Positions 4,589 through 9,657 of a stretch of DNA of 33,100 nucleotides are shown here, in pieces. Position 1 is the first letter of the stretch. The number at the start of each line of letters is the position of its first letter. The position numbers were made by a program, and so were the translations under genes. The stretch covers positions 1 to 33,100 of the forward strand of contig NZ_WACG01000004.1 in the NCBI RefSeq assembly GCF_009193255.1, given 5' to 3'. The notes beneath the pieces were generated by a model. The model was given only the letters and a program-made list of their open reading frames with translations, had not been told where the DNA came from and ran no database searches. Origin of the DNA: Arthrobacter koreensis. Lineage in GTDB: Bacteria > Actinomycetota > Actinomycetes > Actinomycetales > Micrococcaceae.

Positions 4589-6151
4589 CTAACGTGCTGC
4601 GGCCGGTGCCTGAACCAGCGGGAGCACCGTACCTTCTGCCAGGATGGCCTGGATCTGTCCCGCGGCCAGCGGCCTGCTGAAGTAGTACCCCTGGCCGTTG
4701 CGGCAGCCAAGCACCAGCAGGTCTGCCGCCTGGTCAAGCGTCTCGATTCCTTCGAAAACCGCTTCCATGCCGGCGGCACGGATCAGCCCGTGGACAGCAT
4801 CCACGAACTGCCGCTGTCCGGGGTCCGCGCTGATGTCCCGAATCAGGCTGCGGTCCACCTTCACCGTCTGGACGGGCAGCCTGCGGAGGTAGCTGATCGA
4901 GGAGTACCCCGTGCCGAAGTCGTCTATCTCGATGCCCACGCCAAGCGCGTTCAGCGACTTCAGGGAGTACATCTCCACGTCTCCTCCGCTGACGAAGGCG
5001 CTCTCGGTGATCTCGATGACCAGGCGGGAAGCGCGTATCCCGGTTTCCAGCAGGTCCTGCCGCACATGGTCCACCAGATCCAGCCGCTGCAGTTCCATGG
5101 CGGAGAGGTTGACCCGGACCTTGAAATCGTCGTCGAGGTCCAGCTGCCCTTCCCAGTGCGCCACCTGCTCCAGGGCAGCCCGCAGCACCCAGCGGCCAAG
5201 GTCCAGGATGATGCCGGTTTCCTCGGCGATCGGAATGAAGTCATCCGGCATCACCAGACCGCGCTGTGGGTGCTGCCAGCGAACCAGTGCCTCCACCCCG
5301 CTCATCCTGCCGGTGGCGAGCTCGACGACGGGCTGGTAGTCGAGGAACAATTCGTTCCGTCCCAGGCCCTCCCGGAGCTCGGTAGCCATATCCCGGCGGA
5401 GCTGGCGGGCGTACAGCATCACCGGCTCGAATGCCTTGCTTTGTCCCCGGCCCGCGTCCTTGGCCGCATACATGGCAGTGTCCGCCCGCACCATGATGTC
5501 CTCGGCGCTTTCCCCCGGCTGTGCGGCATGGACGCCCACGCTCGCGCGCGGCCACACGTCGATTTCCTCCACCCGGATGCATTCGGCCAGCGCATCGTGG
5601 ATTCGCGCGGACACACCCATGGCAGTACTCAGGCCCGTGTCCGGCAGCAGAACGGCAAATTCGTCCCCACCCAGCCGGGCCACTGTGTCGCCCCTGCGAA
5701 CTGCCCAGCGGAGCCGGCGGGCTACTTCCACGAGGACCTGGTCACCGGTTTGGTGGCCAAAGCTGTCGTTGATGTCCTTGAAGGCATCCAGGTCGATCAT
5801 CAGGACCGAGGGGCGCGTACCTTCTATCTCGCTGGCGAGCAGTTCCGCCTCAATCTCGTGCATCAGCGCCGTGCGGTTGGCGGTGCCGGTCAGGGCATCA
5901 CTCATCGCCATCCGCTGCATTTGGCGGTGCGCCGCCTGCAGCTCGCGGGTACGCGATTCGACCCGCTCTTCGAAGTCCTGATAGACGGAGTTCAGTTCCT
6001 CGGCCAGCAGGTTGATGCCGGTGATAACGGCGTCCACGTCGTCGCGTTGTGGTGAGGTGCGGATCCTCGTGCCAAGGTCGCCGGCAGCAATCCGGACAAT
6101 TCCGTCCACGACCTGCTGAAGTCTTGGGTCTCCGGCTTCAGGGTCCGTCAT
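4589..6151 (-). CDS. Cytoplasmic GGDEF-EAL cyclic-di-GMP turnover protein
   Basis: A 520-residue two-domain protein. Residues 10-60 resemble a HAMP-like helical linker but no transmembrane segment precedes it, and 60-82 is probably coiled coil. The GGDEF domain starts at DALTGT (85) and has an intact GGDEF at 161-165 plus an RRGD inhibitory site at 152-155, five residues upstream, so diguanylate cyclase activity with product inhibition is expected. The EAL domain has EAL at 287-289, the metal and catalytic residues in NLSAMEL, ITESAF, DDFGTG (410-415), KVDRSLI and FEGIE (466-470), so the phosphodiesterase half also looks intact. The net direction cannot be predicted. Its ATG overlaps the stop of the upstream STAS-like gene (ATGA at 6151-6148), so the two are translationally coupled and probably work as a sensor/output pair. 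Confidence 0.92.
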   Translation of the reverse strand: MTDPEAGDPRLQQVVDGIVRIAAGDLGTRIRTSPQRDDVDAVITGINLLAEELNSVYQDFEERVESRTRELQAAHRQMQRMAMSDALTGTANRTALMHEIEAELLASEIEGTRPSVLMIDLDAFKDINDSFGHQTGDQVLVEVARRLRWAVRRGDTVARLGGDEFAVLLPDTGLSTAMGVSARIHDALAECIRVEEIDVWPRASVGVHAAQPGESAEDIMVRADTAMYAAKDAGRGQSKAFEPVMLYARQLRRDMATELREGLGRNELFLDYQPVVELATGRMSGVEALVRWQHPQRGLVMPDDFIPIAEETGIILDLGRWVLRAALEQVAHWEGQLDLDDDFKVRVNLSAMELQRLDLVDHVRQDLLETGIRASRLVIEITESAFVSGGDVEMYSLKSLNALGVGIEIDDFGTGYSSISYLRRLPVQTVKVDRSLIRDISADPGQRQFVDAVHGLIRAAGMEAVFEGIETLDQAADLLVLGCRNGQGYYFSRPLAAGQIQAILAEGTVLPLVQAPAAAR

Positions 6152-6579
6152 CGCGTTTTAGCCCTCAACCAGCCAAGTGCCTCGTCCCTGGAAGAGAAGT
6201 ATCTGGTCGGGCAGTGCGGCAGGTCACCCCCCAGCAGGAAATTGGCTATGACCCGATCAACCTGCGAAGACCCGAGGACTGCAACCGCTGAGGCGGAATG
6301 GGCGCCGCCAAAGACTGATCGGGCACTGCGCGTAATGGATTCAATGCCAGTCAGTTCGAGCAGGAGCGGCATCATTCCCGTTCCGGTTATCTGTTCGAAC
6401 TCCGATGCAGCACGGGCTGCGATCCCTCCCGTGATGACGGCACCGGGAGGTAGGACCAGCCTGACGAAACCATCTTCCAGGGAGACTCCTACATACCCTT
6501 CGATGAGTCCGGCGGCTTCGGCGACGTCCACGGGTGGGGCCTCTTCCGGTACCGGGACTGCACTATCAACGACCGTCAT
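6148..6579 (-). CDS. STAS/SpoIIAA-like protein coupled to the GGDEF-EAL gene
   Basis: A 143-residue soluble protein without signal peptide or membrane segment. The pattern is a beta-strand-rich N-terminus (GFVRLVLPPGAVITGGIAA), a helix, LLLELTGIESITRSAR and a C-terminal RYFSSRDEALGWLR. This resembles STAS/SpoIIAA-like domains of actinobacteria, in which the strand ending MPLLLELTG replaces the anti-sigma-antagonist strand. There is no obvious phosphorylatable Ser in the classic SpoIIAA position. The stop codon overlaps the start of the GGDEF-EAL gene by four bases. It is probably a regulatory partner that modulates the cyclic-di-GMP enzyme, since that protein lacks its own sensory domain. The family assignment is by pattern and moderate. 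Confidence 0.6.
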   Translation of the reverse strand: MTVVDSAVPVPEEAPPVDVAEAAGLIEGYVGVSLEDGFVRLVLPPGAVITGGIAARAASEFEQITGTGMMPLLLELTGIESITRSARSVFGGAHSASAVAVLGSSQVDRVIANFLLGGDLPHCPTRYFSSRDEALGWLRAKTR

Positions 6580-6799: not shown

Positions 6800-7828
6800 T
6801 TAGTCATCCGCAGATTCCCGCAATTGGGTTAGGAATCTCCTGGACTGCTCAGCGCGGGCGCCGGCACCCGCAGTTTCGAATAGGTGGGCGCTCAGGGCGA
6901 AACGATCGGCGGCGGCCGCCAGATGTCCTTCCGCCCGGAGAATCCTGGCCAGCAGGAAGAGAGCTTCCCCCTCGATATGAGGTGCCATGATTTCCGACTT
7001 CCCCATCACTGCGTTCATCTTGGAACGTGCTGCAGCAAGGTCGCCTGTCAGGAACGACCAGTAGGCACGGGTTATCGCCAGCTCAATTTCGTCCTGCGGT
7101 GTGCCACCCGTAATTGAGATGGCCATTTCGGCCCGCTCGATGCACTGGAGGGTTTCAGGCTCTACGAGGTTCGCAGTGAGGCGCATGAAGGCGGAAGCCT
7201 TGTTGAAGAGGGCCCACAGGCTCACGTCGTTCGTCGGCGACAGCGAGGCCGAAGCCAGCCCATGGTAATGCGTTGCCTCGCTGTGCCGACCAGCAAGGAA
7301 TGCAGCATTTCCCACCGACCAGTATGCCTTCCCGGCTTTCTCCAACCCGGTGTCGTCGCCGACCATGCTGGCGAGCACTTCGGCCTCTGTCCAAGCGTCA
7401 TCAAAGTTGCCGCTCTCGGCCAGGACCGCTACGAGGGCCTGCTGCGCTTCGAGTTTTCCGCGTCCCCCAACGTCACCGTCCGGAAGTTCCAACGCGGCCG
7501 CACGGGCAACCTGCAGTGCTTGAGGAAGCAGGCCCTGACCTTGAAGACCCAGCGAACGGAGAGCTTTGGCCTTAGCGGCCAGCTCCGGATCTTCCAGGGA
7601 GAGTGGATGGCTCACCAGCTGCAGAGCGGTCTCCGAGCAGTCTTCCATCTGACCGAGCTCGAGCTGACATTCCCCCATGAGGAACGTCATACGCCACCAT
7701 CCGGATTCGTCACCGGATTCCCGCGCCGCTTCCGCTGCCCTTCCAGCACACTTCAGGGCCGCGGGATAGTCACGGCCTTCCCAGCTCTGACGAGCCTTGT
7801 ACTCGTTCAGTATGAAGTCACTGATCAT
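6800..7828 (-). CDS. Stand-alone TPR protein, candidate peptide receptor (RRNPP/Rap-like)
   Basis: A 342-residue, almost entirely alpha-helical protein with no signal peptide, membrane segment or DNA-binding domain. Degenerate tetratricopeptide units run through its length: the first helices (SWEGRDYPAALKCAGRAAEA), then WRMTFLMGECQLELGQ, AKALRSLGLQGQGLLPQALQ, AYWSVGNAAFLAGRHSEA, ALFNKASAFMRL, AYWSFLTGDLAAARSKM and ALFLLARILRAEGHLAAAADRF. A TGA stop lies directly before the ATG, so no N-terminal helix-turn-helix is being missed in this frame. The size and TPR-only design resemble Rap-type members of the RRNPP family, cytoplasmic receptors for imported signal peptides. The gene is divergent from a small secreted-peptide gene (8073-8213) across 244 bases, the arrangement expected of a receptor/peptide pair. 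Alternatively it could be a scaffold protein of unrelated role. The ribosome-binding site is poor. Confidence 0.75.
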   Translation of the reverse strand: MISDFILNEYKARQSWEGRDYPAALKCAGRAAEAARESGDESGWWRMTFLMGECQLELGQMEDCSETALQLVSHPLSLEDPELAAKAKALRSLGLQGQGLLPQALQVARAAALELPDGDVGGRGKLEAQQALVAVLAESGNFDDAWTEAEVLASMVGDDTGLEKAGKAYWSVGNAAFLAGRHSEATHYHGLASASLSPTNDVSLWALFNKASAFMRLTANLVEPETLQCIERAEMAISITGGTPQDEIELAITRAYWSFLTGDLAAARSKMNAVMGKSEIMAPHIEGEALFLLARILRAEGHLAAAADRFALSAHLFETAGAGARAEQSRRFLTQLRESADD

Positions 7829-8072
7829 TCAAAAGCCACGACTTTCTCGGTATCCTGCACGGCGTCTGTACCACCCCCGATTCATTCTTGCGCATCGGAG
7901 GTCGCCGCTGAGTCAACGTTACGTTGCGTCGCGGGTTTGAGGTGGCAGATCGACCAGCCGCAGCATATACGCAAGATAACCTGAAATTTCGATACATGAA
8001 CGCTTTTAGGGTGTCTTCGTTAGGTACACTTTCTTTGTCAGCTAGCTGTGAAACCTCACTATAGGAGCACCA
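7829..8072. promoter_or_regulatory. Divergent control region between TPR gene and secreted-peptide gene
   Basis: It has two conspicuous dyads. One is caacgt-t-acgttg (7914-7926), on the TPR-gene side. The other is the perfect palindrome cagctagctg (8039-8048), in the likely 5' untranslated region of the peptide gene. A candidate -10 box TACACT (8025-8030) precedes the second dyad; an alternative TAGGGT is at 8007-8012. Neither has a strong -35 match. The stretch 7966-8010 is AT-rich compared with the flanks. These could be operators for autoregulation; this is inference from symmetry. Confidence 0.45.
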
Positions 8073-8213
8073 ATGAAGAAACTAGGCGCATCGCTTCTTC
8101 TCGCGGCAGCCATTACGGCTGTCGGAGTCGCCGCACCGGCGAATGCGGCACCGTCGTTCGGCAACACTGGCGGCGGGACGGTTTCTCCGCTCGTCAACTG
8201 GTGGCCGAACTAA
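8073..8213 (+). CDS. Small secreted peptide precursor (46 aa), candidate signal peptide gene
   Basis: ATG at 8073 is preceded by a good Shine-Dalgarno AGGAG (8063-8067, five-base spacing). The product is 46 residues: a basic start (MKK), a hydrophobic core (LGASLLLAAAITAVGVAA) and a signal peptidase I site PANA|APS, leaving about 21 residues. The mature part is APSFGNTGGGTVSPL followed by VNWWPN, uncharged, Gly-rich in the middle and with a Trp-Trp-Pro-Asn C-terminus. It has no Cys, so it is neither a lipoprotein nor a lanthipeptide-like precursor. The gene is monocistronic, ending in TAA two bases into a short spacer before a strong terminator at 8224-8270. It lies divergent from a TPR protein with receptor-like architecture. 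The layout suggests an exported pro-peptide whose C-terminal fragment is a signal; a small antimicrobial or cell-wall peptide is the alternative. Confidence 0.8.
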   Translation: MKKLGASLLLAAAITAVGVAAPANAAPSFGNTGGGTVSPLVNWWPN

Positions 8214-8223
8214 GTCTGTGTCT

Positions 8224-8270
8224 GGCCGGGCTCCAATCTCTCTGGGATTGCAGCCCGGCCTTTCTCGTTT
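8224..8270 (+). terminator. Strong intrinsic terminator of the peptide gene
   Basis: ggccgggct (8224-8232) pairs perfectly with agcccggcc (8252-8260). After one C-C mismatch the stem continues with caatc/gattg (8234-8238/8246-8250). The run tttctcgttt follows directly. It begins 10 bases after the peptide stop, which supports the small ORF being a real transcription unit separate from deoC. Confidence 0.9.
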
Positions 8271-9115: not shown

Positions 9116-9367
9116 ATGGCACGAACCAAGGCCAAGCAGCCCACCCACTCGGGCGAAGGACACCTGGTCTCGAACCTCGTCACCTTCATTGTCTTCTTTG
9201 GGCTCTTCCTCGCCTCGATCTACGCCTTGAACTGGCTGACACTGGACGCGGTTTGGCCGATGGTGGTCTGCCTCGTCGTAGGTACTCTCGTCTACCTCAT
9301 CCCGTTCATGATGGGCCGCTCGGACACCACCGTTGAGCTGGCTGAAGGCAAGTCGCACAACGAGTAA
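9116..9367 (+). CDS. Small two-helix membrane protein, function unknown
   Basis: An 83-residue protein with a polar, basic start (MARTKAKQPTHSGEGH), two hydrophobic segments at about residues 19-40 and 46-67, and a charged tail (DTTVELAEGKSHNE). It is preceded by GGAGA with suitable spacing and followed by a strong terminator at 9397-9441. It lies 41 bases after deoC in the same direction, so readthrough from deoC is possible. Similar short membrane proteins downstream of deoC are known from Micrococcaceae-type genomes in my recollection, but no function is established and none is proposed. Confidence 0.8.
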   Translation: MARTKAKQPTHSGEGHLVSNLVTFIVFFGLFLASIYALNWLTLDAVWPMVVCLVVGTLVYLIPFMMGRSDTTVELAEGKSHNE

Positions 9368-9516: not shown

Positions 9517-9657
9517 ATGAGCACAACACTGACACGTAGACAATGGCGCGCTGAGCGTATCCGCCAGCAGCGCTTCACCAGGTTCTCCTACTCGGCAATC
9601 GCTGCGCTCGTCGTCTCGGCAGCCGTAGTCTTCGCGATTGCCATCCAGCAAACGTAG
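9517..9657 (+). CDS. Small single-pass membrane protein (46 aa), uncertain
   Basis: ATG at 9517 opens a 46-residue frame with a strongly basic first half (RRQWRAERIRQQRFTRFSY) and one hydrophobic helix (SAIAALVVSAAVVFAIAI), ending QQT. The charge pattern fits an inward N-terminus and a single membrane anchor. It occupies the space between two well-defined units and ends eight bases before the convergent SIS gene. There is no clear Shine-Dalgarno sequence, so coding is plausible but not proven. Confidence 0.5.
   Translation: MSTTLTRRQWRAERIRQQRFTRFSYSAIAALVVSAAVVFAIAIQQT

Follow-up and report, generated by a model that had tools for sequence, protein, structure and literature searches.

A predicted Rap-Phr-like peptide-pheromone module linked to the only GGDEF gene of Arthrobacter koreensis

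Introduction

Quorum sensing by imported peptides that act via tetratricopeptide-repeat (TPR) receptors is known from Bacillota and from mobile elements of these bacteria. Hallmarks of such RRNPP systems include return of the peptide through an oligopeptide permease and a conformational switch. Rap receptors lack a helix-turn-helix (HTH) domain and act on a partner by protein-protein contact, PlcR and NprR possess an N-terminal HTH before the TPRs, and the signal of the type II ComR-ComS system (Streptococcus XIP) carries a Trp-Trp (WW) motif. Here we describe a TPR-only receptor gene and a small secreted-precursor gene of Arthrobacter koreensis, found in a window of 33,100 nucleotides (nt; the whole stretch of DNA analysed, from the start of contig NZ_WACG01000004.1). 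With a probability of roughly three in four, the two genes belong to a chromosomal Rap-Phr-like peptide-pheromone module, in which the signal VNWWPN or LVNWWPN sets the level of cyclic di-GMP (c-di-GMP) via the TPR receptor.

According to the RRNPP_Detector survey, the signature of such systems is a Sec-secreted propeptide of 10-100 amino acids (aa) whose gene is directly adjacent to that of a receptor of 250-500 aa with peptide-binding TPRs (PMC10075063). The precursor in the window has 46 aa (43-53 aa at 29 loci of the genus) and the receptor 342 aa, and both genes are adjacent and divergent with 244 nt between them, an adjacency seen for 79/81 TPR-only receptors. Four multi-copy relatives (L126, L132, L135, and L137) exceed 100 aa and thus lie past the propeptide range.

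As in Rap-Phr, a TPR-only cytoplasmic receptor adjoins a propeptide predicted here to be exported by Sec and to carry a short signal; repeated Phr propeptides are also known, as stated in two studies (PMC9765709, PMC11343458). Unlike the Bacillales, which according to one of these studies encode their precursor immediately downstream (PMC9765709), Arthrobacter has a divergent precursor gene. The Arthrobacter system further differs in its phylum (Actinomycetota), the lack of significant sequence similarity, the WP-type signal, and the predicted partner, a c-di-GMP enzyme. A sister family in Micrococcaceae, composed of HTH_3 plus TPR proteins beside a secreted and often multi-copy precursor, resembles PlcR-PapR and NprR-NprX, and repeated propeptides are likewise reported for NprR and PlcR in one study (PMC9765709). 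However, the Micrococcaceae pairs are divergent, use a GNWPD-type code, and belong to another phylum, and neither PlcR nor NprR was among the PDB matches of the TPR-only profile at E up to 1. In contrast to AimR-AimP (arbitrium) of SPbeta-type phages, the Arthrobacter system is chromosomal, and tblastn with the HTH-TPR receptor of locus L111 (not the window protein) as query gave no match in 50,697 phage records. The Trp-Trp near the end of LVNWWPN recalls type II ComR-ComS, whereas the window receptor has no HTH and the constant of the family is Trp-Pro, not Trp-Trp.

Among the matches listed in the open-access literature, with subscription papers and preprints mostly outside that scope, no earlier description in Actinomycetota was present. 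The signature-defining survey states that it covered among bacteria only complete Firmicutes genomes (PMC10075063).

Conservation of the receptor-precursor pair

The TPR gene is present in 29/29 genomes of the genus, and in all 29 a secreted-peptide gene of 43-53 codons stands divergently beside it. Arthrobacter gandavensis, A. luteolus, A. citreus, and A. agilis are among the named relatives. A script found 28 of these precursors; the 29th (L010), which starts with GTG, was read by eye and later also found by script. In the peptides of three of the 29 genomes, F-P replaces W-P. Within the Micrococcaceae, a TPR homologue was detected in at least 121 of 245 genomes and at least 18 of 32 genera, with six of the 121 genomes matching marginally (4e-5 to 8e-4). 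The 114 distinct receptor sequences gathered cover the neighbourhoods of a part of the 121 matching genomes. Precursors were scored as open reading frames (ORFs) of 35-170 codons with a leader pattern, a Shine-Dalgarno-like stretch, and W/F-P. Such an ORF diverges from 79/81 distinct TPR-only receptors for which 700 nt or more of upstream DNA were available (four further TPR-only receptors were left out because theirs was cut off) and from 14/24 HTH-TPR receptors outside the genus. The expectation in the initial annotation that the small ORF would regularly diverge from TPR homologues was thus borne out.

Under a stricter, WP-only criterion, a secreted-like ORF occupies the divergent position of 89/110 receptors. 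The same ORF type occurs 65 times in the remaining 680,249 bp on both strands, corresponding to about 0.03 expected per site, and 41 such ORFs arose in copies of this DNA generated by a first-order Markov model. A chance origin of the divergent WP ORFs is excluded.

Several loci show individual features. L124 is an additional HTH-TPR receptor with a precursor, beyond the 14/24. In genome G022 (L022 / L096), the receptor is broken into two reading frames next to an intact precursor gene, which reflects either loss or a sequencing error. Two TPR-only receptors stand in tandem in L051, L060, L074, L086, L089, and L091, and each has its own precursor where the upstream DNA sufficed for a test, the first L074 copy being the sole exception. 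Contig L072, recorded as Vibrio cholerae strain 35D, carries an Arthrobacter-type locus; mislabelling or contamination of this record is the most likely explanation, because its receptor groups among Arthrobacter in the tree.

The repeated hexapeptide and the predicted signal

The precursors of many relatives hold 2-8 copies of one hexapeptide, such as IGNWPD (four copies in L111), VGDWPH (six in L122), VGNWPD (eight in L135), and VGWWPN (four in L132), while two bare VGNWPN copies directly abut in L120. Comparing the six codons around WP between copies of 28 multi-copy precursors, the proportion of synonymous differences (pS) was 0.43 and that of nonsynonymous differences (pN) was 0. The units were picked by WP, so that W and P were fixed and the other four residues were free to vary. 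Degenerate copies without WP (IGNWAD in L112 and GSWTH in L130) were left out, the multi-copy precursors of L124 and L163 stand outside the set of 28, and six of the 28 had no synonymous difference and are hence uninformative. Such synonymous-only divergence of the copies is characteristic of multi-copy pheromone precursors.

The hexapeptide is exactly identical within species and differs between species. Across 49 close pairs within the genus, the signal peptide had a pN/pS of 0.13, the hexapeptide 0.54, and the preceding linker 0.76. The C-terminus thus does not vary at random; random variation there had been named in the initial annotation as evidence against its proposal. The tandem copies together with this constraint indicate that the gene delivers a short peptide, which in single-copy precursors lies at or near the C-terminus. 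The signal peptide shows distinct n-, h-, and c-regions and an A-x-A site, by pattern and conservation, and predicted cleavage after residue 25 (A-N-A/A) leaves 21 residues. These 21 residues had been proposed as the mature product, and the count stands; as the signal itself, a C-terminal hexa- or heptapeptide is probable instead, because tandem copies in L050 and L120 follow one another as bare hexapeptides. In the window, the signal is probably VNWWPN or LVNWWPN.

Receptor fold, architectures, and covariation with the peptide

No Pfam or NCBIfam model scored over cut-off for the window receptor, with Pfam TPR models remaining below it, and a fold model was therefore needed; in the relative L111, Pfam TPR was over cut-off. 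The AlphaFold model, built with 41 sequences, is an all-helical TPR solenoid (predicted local distance difference test, pLDDT, 92.3; predicted template modelling score, pTM, 0.87) and is similar to MalT, Rap, AimR, and NprR. Residues W205, F208, N209, and R216 are invariant in the receptor alignment A1. Neither the domain scan nor the fold model revealed an HTH, which agrees with the original description of a receptor lacking a DNA-binding domain.

Longer relatives carry an N-terminal HTH_3/HTH_31 ahead of the TPRs, over cut-off in L101, L111, L130, and L135; the model of L101 has good TPRs and a poor HTH (pLDDT <50 at residues 1-8 and 14-41). A longer paralogue was found in 29/29 genomes of the genus as the second match. 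The HTH of this paralogue is recognisable by alignment to the query A4, and the copy in this genome (L145) gave no HTH match in Pfam. This degenerate HTH plus TPR gene (L145:5770-7005, G000:C9) lies, by eye, between an rpf-like gene and ksgA. Among five HTH-type loci scanned, L111, L122, and L128, all with multi-copy precursors, are beside purC, and at L111 and L122 the neighbours further include purD and a gene for an ABC transporter.

The receptor diverges strongly within the genus, with a mean distance of 0.56 vs. 0.09 for the adjacent deoC. With deoC removed, receptor distance predicted heptapeptide distance (partial r 0.30; 0/2000 permutations as high), and the corresponding value for the signal-peptide distance was 0.02, which is no prediction. 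Covariation of heptapeptide and receptor hence exceeds what species divergence explains, a relation for which a check had been suggested from the window alone. In a tree of 109 receptors, kindred receptors mostly share kindred peptide codes. Side-by-side paralogues in L051, L060, L086, and L089 keep separate codes, namely IDDWPH or IDNWPN vs. repeats of VGNWPD, VGNWPG, or SGNWPD. With the labels as given, the tree requires three switches between the HTH-TPR and TPR-only architectures; two rows (L147 and L148) are mislabelled, being by tree and place the longer paralogue of the genus, and were counted there, not as TPR-only. Automatic precursor assignment erred for L011, L124, L031, L134, L141, and L148, and some names in the tree carry these wrong assignments; the covariation analysis used the corrected L011 precursor.

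Linkage to a GGDEF-EAL gene

A GGDEF-EAL gene lies on the receptor strand in 29/29 loci of the genus, 44/56 other TPR-only loci, and 0/29 HTH-type loci, as seen in fetched stretches of mostly 3 kb on each side, some of them shorter. Ten of the 12 missing TPR-only loci have GGDEF-EAL within about 5 kb; no such gene was found within about 5 kb in L094, which is at a contig end, or in L100. The linkage persists with about 4.6 kb between the two genes, and it also holds where GGDEF-EAL has moved to the opposite side of the receptor with the strand unchanged (L110, L132, L138-L140, and L144). Among the matches listed for the 245 family genomes, at least 52 of 106 GGDEF-EAL places have a TPR homologue no more than 10 kb away; in each of these 52 the two genes share a strand, and eight genera are represented. 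By match strength, the linked fractions among these matches were 34/35, 14/25, 2/14, and 2/32, with the absence of an HTH checked in a part of the linked TPR homologues. The most telling fact for an output link is that each of the 29 genomes of the genus has one GGDEF match, which is always the receptor-linked gene when places are compared. The same gene is also the strongest EAL match, and a second, EAL-only match occurs in 15/29.

The GGDEF-EAL protein of the window keeps the GGDEF motif, the RxxD site, EAL, DDFGTG, and related motifs, which presumably have their usual roles, and no membrane segment was seen by eye. Its frame overlaps by 4 nt with that of a DUF7793 protein, which is encoded between receptor and GGDEF-EAL in 29/29 loci of the genus. 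The DUF7793 protein is no general adaptor, because it was found on the same strand in only 25/56 TPR-only loci outside the genus.

The suggestion that the adjacent GGDEF-EAL gene provides the output has gained strong support from this linkage, and the enzyme is still a predicted output; the TPR gene is not consistently accompanied by unrelated genes, as would have counted against the initial annotation, and is linked to GGDEF-EAL instead. Still, the pheromone-receptor pair may be real with an output other than c-di-GMP, the TPR protein controlling another protein such as the longer paralogue and GGDEF-EAL being a mere long-standing neighbour. We regard this alternative as the most serious one, yet unlikely. 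GGDEF-EAL orthologues without a linked receptor do occur among the matches listed, 220 nt separate the receptor stop from the DUF7793 start, all 29 genomes have the longer paralogue, and no PilZ or MshEN c-di-GMP receptor was found in this genome. However, a mere neighbour is harder to reconcile with a linkage that spans eight genera on one strand (52/52), survives changed gene order or a gap of about 4.6 kb, and is missing from the fetched stretches of all 29 HTH-type loci.

In genus g8, four genomes (G088, G145, G183, and G195) have GGDEF-EAL orthologues (E about 1e-163) with no linked TPR among the matches listed, and three of them show only a marginal TPR match elsewhere in the genome.

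Proposed mechanism and alternative explanations

The analysis shows that the two genes are paired, that the coding sequence is constrained, that multi-copy precursors occur, that the receptor has a predicted TPR fold and covaries with the peptide, and that it is linked to the only GGDEF gene of the genus. The steps that follow, from export and processing to import and receptor binding, are inferred, as are the partner and the direction of any effect. Sec would export the 46-aa precursor, signal peptidase would cleave it, and a second protease would release the C-terminal hexa- or heptapeptide. The peptide may then be re-imported, probably via an oligopeptide permease; the genome has six SBP_bac_5 matches, which make import possible and no more. 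In the cytoplasm, the peptide is predicted to bind the TPR receptor on its concave face. Having no DNA-binding domain, the receptor would act through contact with a partner, and the likely partner is the same-strand GGDEF-EAL enzyme, in this genus perhaps via the DUF7793 protein, so that c-di-GMP would be set by cell density. In its fullest form, the proposal is an RRNPP-type system in Actinomycetota, in which an imported hexa- or heptapeptide acts through a Rap-like receptor, in this genus perhaps with a SpoIIAA-like adaptor, on the only diguanylate cyclase of the cell, and in which a family of HTH-TPR and TPR-only receptors has evolved diverse private WP-peptide codes across Micrococcaceae; to this form we incline, if only slightly.

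If the proposal is true, imported-peptide quorum sensing through TPR receptors gains a phylum, with signal sequences ready for synthesis and many natural receptor-peptide pairs for specificity studies. It would also provide a direct link from a pheromone to c-di-GMP, with a clean test offered by the single GGDEF enzyme of the genus, and c-di-GMP in this Arthrobacter genus would in effect be a population-density signal.

Several observations weigh against this proposal. The Sec signal was judged from sequence pattern. No WP-peptide gene lies near 10/24 HTH-TPR receptors outside the genus (nine counting L124), near any of the five examined copies of the longer paralogue of the genus, or, among the TPR-only receptors, beside L100 and the first L074 copy. 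Up to 54 of the 106 GGDEF-EAL places, and up to 12 of the best 60, have no link to a listed TPR homologue; the limited occurrence of DUF7793 and the lack of PilZ and MshEN, described above, point the same way. The TPR domains of APPBP2 and MalT outscore Rap against the fold model and LGN is nearly as good, so the fold alone is no proof of pheromone binding. In the profile search against PDB, solved RRNPP receptors were non-significant (RapF E 0.095), and the earlier idea of an RRNPP-like system in a high-GC actinobacterium is therefore supported in the sense that the locus would work like RRNPP.

The peptide might alternatively act extracellularly on a membrane sensor, the TPR protein being a separate scaffold for c-di-GMP enzymes. 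TPR scaffolds are common, but the same peptide family stands beside both transcription-factor-like HTH-TPR proteins and TPR-only proteins, which makes the TPR domain the common factor, and no sensor kinase occurs among ten neighbour proteins scanned at five HTH-type loci (the scan covered these loci, not the wider surroundings of the window). We consider this explanation improbable.

A secreted antimicrobial or surface-active peptide, whose production or immunity the TPR protein regulates without binding it, seems slightly less probable again. A short secreted Trp peptide in tandem copies would also suit a bacteriocin-like product; nevertheless, no additional gene lies between the precursor and deoC in the window, the mature part is rich in Gly/Ser/Thr/Asn and followed by a short conserved end, the exact identity of the hexapeptide holds within and not between species, and the peptide covaries with the receptor. 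That the small ORF arose by chance, or is kept for an RNA or regulatory reason rather than its product, is strongly disfavoured: it is short and matches no Pfam or NCBIfam model, but the signal-peptide pN/pS of 0.13, the pN of 0 against a pS of 0.43 between copies, and the 89/110 divergent ORFs against about 0.03 expected per site all count against this explanation.

Distribution beyond the family

At the order level, 18/297 genomes matched query A4 at 1e-20, 15 of them in Micrococcaceae and three in family f17. Two of the four loci of f17, both with HTH-TPR receptors, have a script-found precursor (L163 with three GGSWPT copies, and L165 ending in DTWPA), and the script found none at L162 and L164. 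In the phylum draw, 5/396 genomes matched, including two weak members of family f21, at which no precursor was seen. A phage or plasmid origin was considered and set aside: in addition to the phage records mentioned above, a scan of viral contigs with A4 (again not the window protein) gave no relative, and plasmids yielded one weak match, from Embleya (28%).

Organization of the locus

The features of the locus are listed in Table 1. Both ORFs, the ribosome-binding site, the signal peptidase site, the terminator of the small gene, and the two intergenic dyads reported from the initial reading are all present. The terminator reaches -29.2 kcal/mol over a 71-nt stretch (z -3.79), and 0/200 shuffles were equally stable. 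For the palindrome upstream of the precursor gene, GTCAG in the left half is retained in the eight closest loci and the right half is not. No operator conserved across the whole genus was found in the spacer, only short blocks in these eight loci.

Table 1. Features of the predicted pheromone locus in the window
Feature	Position	Strand	Basis
Predicted pheromone precursor gene, 46 codons, product MKKLGASLLLAAAITAVGVAAPANA / APSFGNTGGGTVSPLVNWWPN (slash, cleavage site)	8073..8213	+	ORF in window; counterpart at 29/29 genus loci
Predicted Sec-type signal peptide, residues 1-25, A-N-A/A cleavage	8073..8147	+	Pattern; same pattern in relatives
Predicted signal hexapeptide VNWWPN	8193..8210	+	For this genome, from repeat position in multi-copy precursors and heptapeptide-receptor covariation
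Alternative heptapeptide LVNWWPN	start 8190	+	Predicted
Ribosome-binding site AGGAG of precursor gene	8063..8067	+	GGAG retained in 8 closest spacers
Intrinsic terminator of precursor gene	8224..8260	+	Stem-loop
Imperfect palindrome TTTGTCAGCTAGCTGTGAAA, 5' of precursor gene	8034..8053		
Second inverted pair in spacer, arms 7918-7929 / 7969-7980	7918..7980		
TPR-only receptor, 342 aa, without DNA-binding domain	6800..7828	-	Domain scans, fold model, genus homologues
DUF7793 / SpoIIAA-like protein, 143 aa, candidate adaptor	6148..6579	-	DUF7793 4.5e-15; SpoIIAA-like below cut-off
HAMP-like GGDEF-EAL protein, 520 aa, candidate output enzyme	4589..6151	-	Sole GGDEF domain found in genome; linkage

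Elsewhere in the window, a second ORF of 46 codons (9517-9657) encodes a small protein with one likely membrane segment, and ahead of it lies an ORF for a membrane protein of 83 aa (9116-9367).
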